Positions 45,151 through 50,433 of a stretch of 64,000 nt of DNA are shown here, in pieces. Numbering within the stretch: the first letter of the stretch is position 1; each line of letters starts with the position of its first letter. The DNA comes from Anaerostipes sp. (lineage in GTDB: Bacteria > Bacillota > Clostridia > Lachnospirales > Lachnospiraceae), in NCBI GenBank assembly GCA_028697725.1, contig JAQVEG010000006.1, positions 1-64,000 on the forward strand, read 5' to 3'. The translations under genes were made by a program, and so were the position numbers. The notes beneath the pieces were generated by a model. The model was given only the letters and a program-made list of their open reading frames with translations, was not told the origin of the DNA and did no database searches.

Positions 45151-45157
45151 TTTCAAG

Positions 45158-45231
45158 TAGCGATGAGCAGATTCGAACTGCTGACACTACGGGTATGAAC
45201 CGTATGCTCTAGCCAACTGAGCTACATCGCC
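45158..45231 (-). tRNA. tRNA-Met (CAT), elongator type; CCA not encoded
   Basis: GGCGATGTAGCTCAGTTGGCTAGAGCATACGGTTCATACCCGTAGTGTCAGCAGTTCGAATCTGCTCATCGCTA; anticodon loop TTCATAC. Confidence 0.95.
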
Positions 45232-45263
45232 ATATGTAATTATTCAGATGAAAATCATCCGAG

Positions 45264-45336
45264 TGGGACCAACAGGGCTCGAACCTGTGACCCCCTGCTT
45301 GTAAGGCAGGTGCTCTCCCAGCTGAGCTATGATCCC
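45264..45336 (-). tRNA. tRNA-Val (TAC); CCA not encoded
   Basis: GGGATCATAGCTCAGCTGGGAGAGCACCTGCCTTACAAGCAGGGGGTCACAGGTTCGAGCCCTGTTGGTCCCA; anticodon TAC. Confidence 0.95.
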
Positions 45337-45440: not shown

Positions 45441-45471
45441 AAAAAACCGCATAAATATGCGGTTTTTCATA
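45441..45471 (-). terminator. Terminator of the secreted C39-like protein gene
   Basis: AAAAACCGCATA-tt-TATGCGGTTTTTTTA on minus strand. Confidence 0.85.
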
Positions 45472-45473
45472 GT

Positions 45474-46772
45474 TTATTTCATAAGAAAATCTGACATTGT
45501 AGGTTTTTTATTCTGATGTAATGGATGCACCATCTCCCAGAATGTTCCCTTTATTGCTTTTTGATTCAATTCCTTGGCAACAGTGACTAATGAAGCCTTT
45601 TCATCTTGTCCCTGAATACTTACTTTATCATCTCCATCAATTCCTGTTAAAGTTACGAACCTTTGTGTATTGCTAATGGTTCCCTTTTTCATTGGAACTG
45701 CAAGTTCATATCCATACTGCAAAACAGACTTTAAGTCTTTACAACGATATTCTAACCGCTTATCAGCCTTAATTTCCTTCTTAATCTTTGCTTCTTTCTT
45801 CTGTTCTACTTTTGTCTTAGAAGAAATCTCCCAGAAAGGTCCTCCTGCAGATGCACTCTTAGATTGAGCAATCACATCCTTCAAGGTGTACTTATATGCA
45901 CTTCTCTCTCGGCTTGCTACGTCTGCAACTGTTACCTGGTCTTTGTCATCAATTCCTACTAATACAATAAAATGTCCACCCTTGGTAAAGTATCCTGGTC
46001 CCATCAATGCAACAACTGGATTCCCTGCTTTTAAAGCAGCTTTAATACTTGCATAATCAGTTCCAAGTCCATTACAATTCAAATCATATTGCTTTGCAAG
46101 TGCAGGAATCATAGCATGAGACGATCCAGCATTGGTATAATATCCATTGTTATATGCCCAGATTGTAGTATCAAGTGGTGTAACCCACTTTCCTGTCAAA
46201 GAACTAATACATACCGCCATAGCAGTTGGTCCACATCCTGAACTATGTATACAATAACCATTCTGATTCCATGCAGAATCTACTTGATTAAAGTAAATAA
46301 ACTTTCCAATGTATTCTTTTTGATTCTTCATGTTAAGTCTAGTATCGTTATATACCTTAGGAATAATATTATTAACTACTTTTTCTTCCTTAAGGTTCTC
46401 ATCTTTCTCTAGCTTCTTAACCTCGTCTTTTGTTTTAATCTTATTGCTTTTTTTATCTTTTTTATCTTTTTTCTTTTTTGTCGTATTTTTATGTTTAGTA
46501 GAGTTACTCGCTGTTGTCGATGTTTTCTCTGTCGTAGAAGTCTCTGGCTTAGCTGCTGTTGTTCCTTGTGTTGTTTCCTCTGTTGTACTTACTGTGTTTG
46601 TCGATGCTTCCGTCGTCTGTTTTATTCCTTCTGACGCTGTGGACACCGTCTTTGCTCCTTCCGTCGTTTGAGCATACACCGTATAATTACTATTCCCTAT
46701 TATGCCAGACATACTTGTTACTGTACAAATACTTAATGCACCTGCTAAAAACAATGCAGAATATTTTTTCAT
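45474..46772 (-). CDS. Secreted C39-like peptidase domain protein with Thr/Ser- and Lys-rich linker and degenerate second half-domain
   Basis: Signal peptide MKKYSALFLAGALSICTVTSMSG; SSGCGPTAMAVCISSLTG (Cys), KGGHFIVLVGIDDKDQVTVADV (His); start at 46772 preferred. Confidence 0.82.
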   Translation of the reverse strand: MKKYSALFLAGALSICTVTSMSGIIGNSNYTVYAQTTEGAKTVSTASEGIKQTTEASTNTVSTTEETTQGTTAAKPETSTTEKTSTTASNSTKHKNTTKKKKDKKDKKSNKIKTKDEVKKLEKDENLKEEKVVNNIIPKVYNDTRLNMKNQKEYIGKFIYFNQVDSAWNQNGYCIHSSGCGPTAMAVCISSLTGKWVTPLDTTIWAYNNGYYTNAGSSHAMIPALAKQYDLNCNGLGTDYASIKAALKAGNPVVALMGPGYFTKGGHFIVLVGIDDKDQVTVADVASRERSAYKYTLKDVIAQSKSASAGGPFWEISSKTKVEQKKEAKIKKEIKADKRLEYRCKDLKSVLQYGYELAVPMKKGTISNTQRFVTLTGIDGDDKVSIQGQDEKASLVTVAKELNQKAIKGTFWEMVHPLHQNKKPTMSDFLMK

Positions 46773-46819: not shown

Positions 46820-49312
46820 TTACAATTCTTCAACTTTACTTCCTTTATTTTTTTTATTTATTTGAATTTGCTGGTCAATTCGGCTTTTTAATTCTGTTAC
46901 ATGAGAAATAATCCCTATTAACCTTTTTCCATCTGCAAGTTCCATTAAGACTTCAACTGCCTGGTCTAAAGATTCTTGATCCAAAGAACCAAATCCCTCG
47001 TCTACAAAAAGCACATCAATCTCAATACCTCCTACATTATTTTGAACAATATCAGATAATCCCAGTGCCAGACACAATGCTGCTTTAAAACTTTCTCCAC
47101 CTGATAATGTCTTTACTGGCCGTTTCTTGCCAGTATAATAATCAAGGACTTCAATCTCTAGATTATCTTTTCTTCTTCCATCCAGGATATTTTCCTGACG
47201 GTACATCTCATATCTTCCATTGGTCATCTTTAAAAGTCTCGTATTCGCAGCTTTTAATATGTCATTGAAATATGTAATTAATACATACTGCTCAAAAGTA
47301 AGTCTTAGACCATTATCTCCATTTAATAGTTTCTCTACGTCTCCCACAATTCCATATTTCTTTTCCAGCTCTTCTTTTCTTATTTCCTTTTCTTTCAGAG
47401 AACTAAGGGCTGTTTTCACTTCATGGAATTCTATTTGATTTTGTTCCTTCTTGCCTTCTAATACAGAGATTTTTTCTTTTCCAAGGTCAATTTGAATCTC
47501 CTTTTGATGGATTTCTTCTTCACTGATCTCATTGATTTGAATCTCTGATTTCTTCTTTTTCACTTCCTTCATTTGAACTTCTACATTAGAAAGTTGTATT
47601 TCATGTTCTTTTAGTGTCTTTTGATTTTCTTTTTGCTCGCTGTCAAACTTCTCAACAAAAGCAACTAATTCCTGATACTGGTGTTCCATTTCATTGATAT
47701 CTGGAATATCCTTTAATTGCTCTTTTACAGCATCTAGTTTTCCACCCATTGCCTGAAGTTCATTTTGAATTTTTTGAAGGCACTCCGTTTCTTCTGAAAC
47801 GCTTTTCGTCTTATACTGCACTGCTTCTTCAGGGGAAATTAAAGTAACTTCTGGCTTTTCGTCCATCTGCTCTTCTAACATTTGATCCCTTTGCATCCAC
47901 TCTAACAATTGATGATAGCATTCCTGATACTGTTGCTCTGCTTTTAGGGATTTATCTTCTTGAATCTTCACATCCTCTTTGGTAACTGTACTATTTTCAC
48001 TTTTTGCCTTATTTGGATGCTCTATGGAACCACAGACTGGACAAGGCTTTCCCTCTTCCAGACTATCTGCAATCATTCCAATATTAGCTGCAAAAAATTC
48101 TGACTGAAGCTTCATCCAAAGATTCTTTTCTTGTTTCCATACTATTTCTTTTCTTTGGTATTCTTCTTTTTTTCTTTCTGTCTGCTTTTTTTGTTGAATT
48201 CTTTGATTCTCTTCTTCCTTCCATTTTTGTAACTGTGCTGCTTGAATCCGAACTTCCTGTTGTAATTGGTCTTCTTTTCGCTCTTTTATTTCATTTTGCA
48301 ACTTTTTATATTGAAATACCAGTTTTTGAAGTTCTTCAAATCGAAGTCTTTGCTCATACTTTTCTTCTCTTTTCTCTGCCAGACTCTCTAGCTCCTGTTG
48401 TTTTTTTTGATCAAGAAGATACGCTGCCTTTAATTTTATATTTTTTTCTTCTAACTGATTTTCTTCCAACAGTAACTTTTCATAAACATCTTTCCCATTC
48501 TTTAATGTTTGAAGATAATTTATCTGTTCCATCTGCCTTTGACGCATTCCGACTAAGTTATCATTTATGATCTTATTTTCTTCTGCTAAAGTTTTTTGAT
48601 TCTTCTCCAAAATCTCTATCATTTTGTGAAAATCACCACGTTCCTTTGCGTCCATATACTCCTGTGAAGAAAGAGAAATATTCCCTGTCTCTTCCATTGT
48701 TGTCACTAATTCTTTCAAAGAAAGATATAACTGCCTTCCTTTTTCTCTCGCTATTTTTTGAATTTTTTGATATATCTGTGTTTGAAAAATAGAACGAAAG
48801 ATTTCCACTCTTTCACTGGATTTTGCAACTAGGAGCTGCTGGAATTCACCTTGTGCCAACATGGAAAGTCTTTTAAACTGATCATAATCAATGCCAAGAA
48901 TCCCTTGTATTTCTTGATTTACCTGAGAAAATCCCGTAACAATATCTCCATTTGGAAGATGCAGGGTCGCTTCTTCCTTTGTCACAGTCATTCCTTCCCC
49001 TCGCATTTTAGGACGTTCATAACGTGGTGTTCTTTCCACCATATACTCTTTCCCACGATGAGAAAAAGATAGTGTAATATATGTCTTTTTCTCTGGCACT
49101 GCAAAATCGCTTCTTAAATTTTCTTTGCTTCGCTCTTCCCCACTTACCTCTCCAAACAAACTGTAAGAAATGGCATCAAAAATTGTTGTTTTCCCTGATC
49201 CTGTTGGCCCACTAATTAAGAAAAGTCCTTCTTTTGCAAGCTTCTCAAAATCAATTTTATTTTCTGTTGGAAAAGGACCCAATCCACAGAATTCTAACAT
49301 CAATGGTCTCAT
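46820..49312 (-). CDS. sbcC: Exonuclease SbcC (SMC-like ATPase)
   Basis: 830 aa; FLISGPTGSGKTTIFDAISYSLFG, coiled coil with GKPCPVCGSIEHPN hook, TLSGGESFKAALCLALGLSD. Confidence 0.95.
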   Translation of the reverse strand: MRPLMLEFCGLGPFPTENKIDFEKLAKEGLFLISGPTGSGKTTIFDAISYSLFGEVSGEERSKENLRSDFAVPEKKTYITLSFSHRGKEYMVERTPRYERPKMRGEGMTVTKEEATLHLPNGDIVTGFSQVNQEIQGILGIDYDQFKRLSMLAQGEFQQLLVAKSSERVEIFRSIFQTQIYQKIQKIAREKGRQLYLSLKELVTTMEETGNISLSSQEYMDAKERGDFHKMIEILEKNQKTLAEENKIINDNLVGMRQRQMEQINYLQTLKNGKDVYEKLLLEENQLEEKNIKLKAAYLLDQKKQQELESLAEKREEKYEQRLRFEELQKLVFQYKKLQNEIKERKEDQLQQEVRIQAAQLQKWKEEENQRIQQKKQTERKKEEYQRKEIVWKQEKNLWMKLQSEFFAANIGMIADSLEEGKPCPVCGSIEHPNKAKSENSTVTKEDVKIQEDKSLKAEQQYQECYHQLLEWMQRDQMLEEQMDEKPEVTLISPEEAVQYKTKSVSEETECLQKIQNELQAMGGKLDAVKEQLKDIPDINEMEHQYQELVAFVEKFDSEQKENQKTLKEHEIQLSNVEVQMKEVKKKKSEIQINEISEEEIHQKEIQIDLGKEKISVLEGKKEQNQIEFHEVKTALSSLKEKEIRKEELEKKYGIVGDVEKLLNGDNGLRLTFEQYVLITYFNDILKAANTRLLKMTNGRYEMYRQENILDGRRKDNLEIEVLDYYTGKKRPVKTLSGGESFKAALCLALGLSDIVQNNVGGIEIDVLFVDEGFGSLDQESLDQAVEVLMELADGKRLIGIISHVTELKSRIDQQIQINKKNKGSKVEEL

Positions 49313-50433
49313 GACTTTTCCACCTCTTCTCCCAGCATCTCTTTCATATAATTGTGACGCTGTTCTTCTATCTCTCCTGTGGCAACCATAAGAAAATCAT
49401 CAAATAATTCCATAGGTGTTTTCTCTTTTATTTTGGAAACAGATAGTTCTCCCTGGTTCCCTCGCTGATTTTTCTCAAGGGATAATTCCATAATATTTGG
49501 ATAATAAGAACGAAGAGTCCCAATAGGGTCTAACAATTCTTCTTTATCTGTCAATGTAACTTTAAGGTAATCTTCTGCATTGGCACTTTCAACGATTTCC
49601 TTTTGAATTAAATCTTTTAATCTGCCTTTGATACATCTCATATCCCTTTGAGCTTTCATCTCTATTGTTTTCACTTCAATCTTCTTATCAATATCCAGCA
49701 TTGTTACAGATTTGTGATGAAACTCTTCTGAAAATGAATATTTCATCAACGATCCACTGTATCGAACGGTATCTCTCCCCACTCTCTGTGGTCCATGAAT
49801 ATGCCCAAGTGCCACATAATCGTAGTCCTCAAACACTTTATAGGAAATGGCATCTGTTCCTCCAATACTAAGTATCTGCTCAGAATCCGACTGTTCTACT
49901 GGATTGGTTCCAGTTACAAATTGATGTGTCACTAGAATATTCTTTTTCTTTTGATCCACAACGTGATGTGCTAAAACAACTTTCATCCCATCCTCAAAAG
50001 TTTCGATTTTCTCTTCTGGATATAATGCTCTTACATGTGCAGGTTTGAAAAATGGAAGAAGATGAATTACCACTTCCTCTCCTATCTCTATTGTTGTAAT
50101 CTCTTCTTTTAGTATTCCTTCTATATAAACACCTTGTTTTGCCAAAATTTCACCGCCAAAGGCTACTCTTTCTCCAGAATCATGATTTCCTGCTACCGCA
50201 TAAACCTTAATCCCCATTCTCGTTATTTCATTTAAAAAATCATCAAATAAAACAACAGCATCCTTTGTTGGAATACTTCGATCATAGATATCTCCTGCAA
50301 GGATGACTCCCTGTATCTTATGTTCCTCGACTACAGAAACTATTTTTTCAAGAAGTATCCTTTGGTCTTCTATTAAATTCATTTCATTCACAGTTTTACC
50401 TAAATGTAAATCTGCCATATGTAATAATCTCAT
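49309..50433 (-). CDS. sbcD: Exonuclease SbcD
   Basis: 374 aa; MADLHLGKTVNEMN, LAGDIYDRSIP, VAGNHDSGERVAFG, LGHIHGPQ. Confidence 0.95.
   Translation of the reverse strand: MRLLHMADLHLGKTVNEMNLIEDQRILLEKIVSVVEEHKIQGVILAGDIYDRSIPTKDAVVLFDDFLNEITRMGIKVYAVAGNHDSGERVAFGGEILAKQGVYIEGILKEEITTIEIGEEVVIHLLPFFKPAHVRALYPEEKIETFEDGMKVVLAHHVVDQKKKNILVTHQFVTGTNPVEQSDSEQILSIGGTDAISYKVFEDYDYVALGHIHGPQRVGRDTVRYSGSLMKYSFSEEFHHKSVTMLDIDKKIEVKTIEMKAQRDMRCIKGRLKDLIQKEIVESANAEDYLKVTLTDKEELLDPIGTLRSYYPNIMELSLEKNQRGNQGELSVSKIKEKTPMELFDDFLMVATGEIEEQRHNYMKEMLGEEVEKS

Follow-up and report, generated by a model that had tools for sequence, protein, structure and literature searches.

The gene at positions 45477–46772 on the minus strand of the window (a 64,000-nucleotide stretch of Anaerostipes sp. 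DNA) was predicted, from its open reading frame and translation, to encode a 432-aa secreted C39-type peptidase. The C-terminal segment of this protein (hereafter, pseudo-half or tail) is, judging from sequence and profile comparisons, a degenerate repeat of the C39 domain's second half and is predicted to be non-catalytic. This would add a half-domain pseudoenzyme, lying in cis with its active-type parent, to the papain-like peptidases. No description of a half-domain pseudoenzyme for Peptidase_C39_2 was found in the literature searched. Anaerostipes is a common gut butyrate producer.

Catalytic domain and its degenerate repeat

The Peptidase_C39_2 catalytic domain occupied residues 156–318 (45819–46307, minus strand). 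Its match to PF13529 spanned residues 158–285 (E 2.9e-21; 77 bits vs. the Pfam curated cut-off of 24), and the four active-site residues Q163, C180, H267 and D284 were all present and invariant across 29 C39 domains. The protein contains one intact domain of this kind. The peptidase stands alone with a putative signal peptide and without fusion to an ABC exporter, which sets it apart from the bacteriocin-processing peptidases of PF03412.

The earlier note had proposed that the motif GGPFWEIS is echoed near the C-terminus by KGTFWEMV. Both motifs were located (residues 310 and 408, respectively), as were GGHFIVL at 265 and TQRFVTL at 369, and the similarity between the repeats was far above that expected by chance: the local alignment score was 69, whereas shuffled sequences scored 26.8 ± 4.1 and none of 5000 reached an equal or higher value. 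The repeat extended beyond both quoted motifs and covered the entire second half of the domain (ca. 73–80 aligned residues). In the profile alignment, residues ca. 344–416 were paired with residues 237–318, i.e., the second (beta) half of the catalytic domain (45819–46064, minus strand). On the minus strand, the C-terminal part of the protein thus comprises a charged inter-domain linker with 36% Lys (residues 319–343, 45744–45818), the pseudo-half (residues 344–416, 45525–45743) and a short conserved end (residues 417–432, 45477–45524) recognised by alignment and modelled with low pLDDT, which carries PTMSDFLMK here and PTLSDFLK in orthologues.

The profile comparison of the two halves, suggested in the earlier note, also indicated homology. 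Alignment of 12 tails with 29 C39 domains using hhalign gave a probability of 98.1 and an E-value of 6.4e-14 across the whole half. The score of 78.3 exceeded those of all 200 column-shuffled profiles (maximum 19.7) and that of the reversed profile (11.2). The probability was similarly high for the eight tails from the genus (97.1), for the four distant tails (97.6) and for tails aligned with the C39 domains of repeat-free proteins (97.6). Moreover, when 299 genomes of the family were searched with the tail profile, ordinary C39 domains were also retrieved through their second halves. Chance similarity was therefore ruled out by the residue shuffles, column shuffles, reversed profile and alignment subsets. 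The homology was visible only by profile–profile and fold comparison: the PF13529 model matched none of the 12 tails, the C-terminal segment matched no Pfam or NCBIfam family, NCBIfam matches being at the level of noise, and no notable hit was obtained when the PDB was searched by sequence with only the tail profile.

The substitution of the catalytic His by Arg described in the earlier note was also confirmed. In this Anaerostipes protein, His267 was aligned with Arg371 and Asp284 with Gly388. Among the 12 homologues, the His position was occupied by R, K, S, Q or E and never by His, and the Asp position retained D in seven and had G, L or I in the other five. The hydrophobic core positions (F, L and F-W) were conserved in the tails while His, and often Asp, was lost. 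A second Cys motif was absent from the repeat, again in agreement with the earlier reading; only ca. 20–25 charged residues lie between the end of the domain (318) and the start of the repeat (344), and a complete second C39 domain was ruled out by the lack of a Cys half in this interval. Because both the Cys half and the His are missing, the tail cannot serve as a further active site.

Distribution, selection and origin

The named relatives found in a genome-collection scan were mostly Anaerostipes, one being 88% identical. Of the 11 Anaerostipes genomes, 8 encoded the tail, which also occurred in four further sequences within Lachnospiraceae (Anaerostipes sp. 992a, Candidatus Fimousia and two Lachnospiraceae MAGs). 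Orthologues of Anaerobutyricum and related MAGs, as well as a second paralogue in A. hominis, had other tails in which similarity to the pseudo-half was undetectable. Since relatives carry unrelated tails, the catalytic domain does not require the pseudo-half. In Anaerobutyricum, the C-termini of two proteins (L044 and L045) shared a conserved tail (YVIHVKEDGQ...LGDQVSYHG...) that matched no Pfam family. For the second long C39 paralogue of A. hominis (L042; 3386–4909 and 7459–8592 noted), an ORF that looked caspase-like by eye was located ca. 2.5 kb downstream.

The tail is under purifying selection. Between this protein and L003, NG86 estimates were dN 0.035 and dS 0.262 for the tail and dN 0.019 and dS 0.236 for the catalytic domain; in more distant pairs, dS was saturated. 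The constraint on the tail was intermediate between those on the linker and the catalytic domain. The faster evolution of the tail relative to the catalytic domain, together with its absence or replacement in relatives, would fit a non-functional remnant of a tandem duplication that is drifting neutrally or decaying. This explanation is nevertheless improbable: the dN/dS was well below 1 in the closest pairs, which weakens it, and an open frame and core residues were kept in all 12 homologues despite only 12%–22% identity between the tails of the two lineages.

The two halves within a protein shared only 15%–34% identity, which rules out a recent duplication. On the tree of halves, the 12 tails formed one group (97/92) with long branches, and two independent duplications were not rejected (p-AU 0.12 to 0.13). 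In the catalytic-domain tree, the repeat-bearing proteins appeared in two places, and their placement in a single group was likewise not rejected (p-AU 0.085). One duplication followed by losses is the simplest scenario, and two gains are possible. It is doubtful that the second half of a secreted C39 peptidase was duplicated independently in two gut lineages of Lachnospiraceae and became the same kind of non-catalytic module in both; if so, this would represent a recurrent route by which papain-like enzymes obtain a pseudo-half-domain as regulator or holder. A phage origin was set aside: a viral-contig scan, which used this protein alone, detected no close relative, and PHROG matches were weak.

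Predicted structure and possible role of the pseudo-half

The protein starts with a putative signal peptide (residues 1–34, VYA|QT; 46671–46772, minus strand), called by eye from a KK motif, a hydrophobic core and an AxA-like site. As noted earlier, this is followed by a Thr/Ser-rich and then a Lys-rich stretch, an arrangement conserved in orthologues. The former (residues 36–93, 46494–46667, minus strand) consists of 50% Ser and Thr with a net charge of −2, and the latter (residues 94–135, 46368–46493, minus strand) of 40% Lys with a net charge of +8 and a pI of 9.8. In a full-length AlphaFold model based on nine sequences, confidence was very low for the N-terminal 147 residues, whereas residues 321–410 had block mean pLDDT values of 71–91.

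When modelled alone with AlphaFold, the tail was predicted to form a helix, three strands and a helical end (pLDDT 83.5, pTM 0.73). Its top PDB matches in Foldseek were papain-like (maximum probability 0.99, no E-value below 0.03) and included CdiA-CT toxin domains, a papain-like toxin, GtgE, and the peptidase domains of ComA and PCAT1. The tail is thus predicted to adopt the C39 half-domain fold. The earlier note had held that a tail structure unrelated to this half-domain would speak against its reading; with papain-like and C39 folds as the top matches, albeit with weak E-values and for a predicted model, its proposal of a catalytic C39 domain plus a homologous pseudo-half was upheld by sequence, profile and predicted fold.

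Several roles could be assigned to such a half-domain. In the papain-like fold, a half without its partner would leave a hydrophobic face to bury, and the face normally packed on the Cys-bearing half might instead meet, or swap with, the same face of a second molecule. The conserved core residues are consistent with a dimerisation element of this type; however, the half was predicted to fold alone, such that a partner is neither needed nor excluded, and we consider this role unlikely. Many secreted cysteine peptidases are produced as zymogens, and the pseudo-half might similarly cover the active-site cleft until the linker at residues 319–343 is cut. This linker is charged and Lys-rich and could be protease-sensitive, and a degenerate half copy could mimic a packing partner. 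Nevertheless, AlphaFold predicted that the linker runs into the pseudo-half's first helix to give a single long helix (residues 321–352) rather than an exposed loop, no Pfam relation to known propeptides or inhibitors was found, and repeat-free orthologues retain an intact catalytic domain for which inhibition would be unnecessary. An autoinhibitory cap is therefore quite unlikely.

The pseudo-half is catalytically dead yet kept by evolution, and therefore it probably holds or shields something rather than cuts. A binding or packing module was favoured over a dimer element, an inhibitor and a leftover, in this order. Taken as a whole, the protein might tentatively be regarded as a wall-retained cysteine peptidase with a non-catalytic binding or packing pseudo-half. 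Our inferences on secretion, enzyme activity, location at the wall and an accessory role are as follows. The Thr/Ser- and Lys-rich extension would keep the secreted papain-like (C39_2) peptidase or isopeptidase in or near the cell wall, where it would cleave peptide bonds via Cys180-His267-Asp284 with Gln163 in the oxyanion hole. Through an ancient partial duplication, the beta half-domain would have come to be repeated at the C-terminus, and this copy, without the nucleophile half and His, would most likely serve as a non-catalytic accessory module, packed against the catalytic domain and assisting in the retention of the substrate or the wall. The net charge of the pseudo-half ranged from +4 to −6 among orthologues, which counts against simple electrostatic binding to the wall. 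If the pseudo-half regulates or aims the enzyme, truncating it would offer an easy way to examine how a catalytically dead half-domain acquires a function.

A peptide of the cell wall or cell surface is a reasonable candidate for the substrate, because of the likeness to PeiR, the viral fold matches, the secretion signal and the Lys-rich extension. Among solved structures, the one closest to the catalytic domain was PeiR (PDB 8z4h), both in the profile search (E 1.2e-7 over 121 positions) and in the fold comparison (E 1.2e-5, ca. 19% identity). This archaeal-virus lytic enzyme is a pseudomurein endoisopeptidase, a type that cleaves the Ala-epsilon-Lys isopeptide bond; it acts on methanogen cell walls and is of the same kind as PeiW and PeiP, which use a Cys-His-Asp triad (PMC4592898); the pseudo-half had no counterpart in the match. 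Several of the best viral fold matches were annotated as phage peptidases, lysozymes or wall hydrolases. In Enterococcus faecalis, a transposon mutant of a C39_2 gene showed an early biofilm defect (PMC6753144), which would fit a surface role by analogy with this distant relative.

Peptidase_C39_2 has been described as single-domain (PMC10318531), whereas the Anaerostipes protein adds a degenerate second half-domain. The same genome also encodes L002, a small C39 paralogue with which this protein shares the catalytic domain, the four active-site residues and the secretion signal. The C39 domains of ComA, PCAT1 and LahT share the fold and the catalytic Cys-His-Asp; however, they occur as fusions to ABC exporters and act specifically on double-glycine leaders, while the present protein has no transporter. 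A possible precedent for a dead C39 domain acting as a substrate holder is the C39-like domain (CLD) of HlyB, which has lost catalysis and tethers unfolded substrate (PMC8277102). The likeness, a C39 fold without catalysis, is one of analogy and not of membership: the HlyB CLD is a whole domain that has lost its Cys and is fused to an ABC transporter (RTX exporter), whereas the pseudo-half is a second half only, has lost its His and lies in a secreted protein without a transporter, downstream of an active-type copy.

Gene boundaries and genomic surroundings

The peptidase gene starts with ATG at 46772 and ends with a stop codon at 45474–45476 (minus strand). A longer reading from ATG 46790 is possible; ATG 46772 was preferred because a ribosome-binding-like GGGAG motif immediately precedes it. 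The genes sbcC and sbcD (46820–50433, minus strand) lie directly upstream in the same direction, with a gap of ca. 47 nt. The sbcD–sbcC pair was upstream in most Anaerostipes orthologues, with different neighbours in other lineages. Given this variation, no functional partner was inferred, and the neighbouring genes offered no functional hint. A 113-aa ORF on the plus strand (46330–46671) overlies the Lys/Thr-rich region and was regarded as a by-product of composition, not as a gene candidate. Directly past the stop codon, there is a terminator-like stem-loop (AAAAAAACCGCATAAATATGCGGTTTTT, 45442–45467), listed here on the minus strand and reported by the scan on the plus strand; it is near-palindromic and can be read on both strands. 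Genes for tRNA-Met and tRNA-Val (45157–45336, minus strand) are located just downstream of the peptidase gene.
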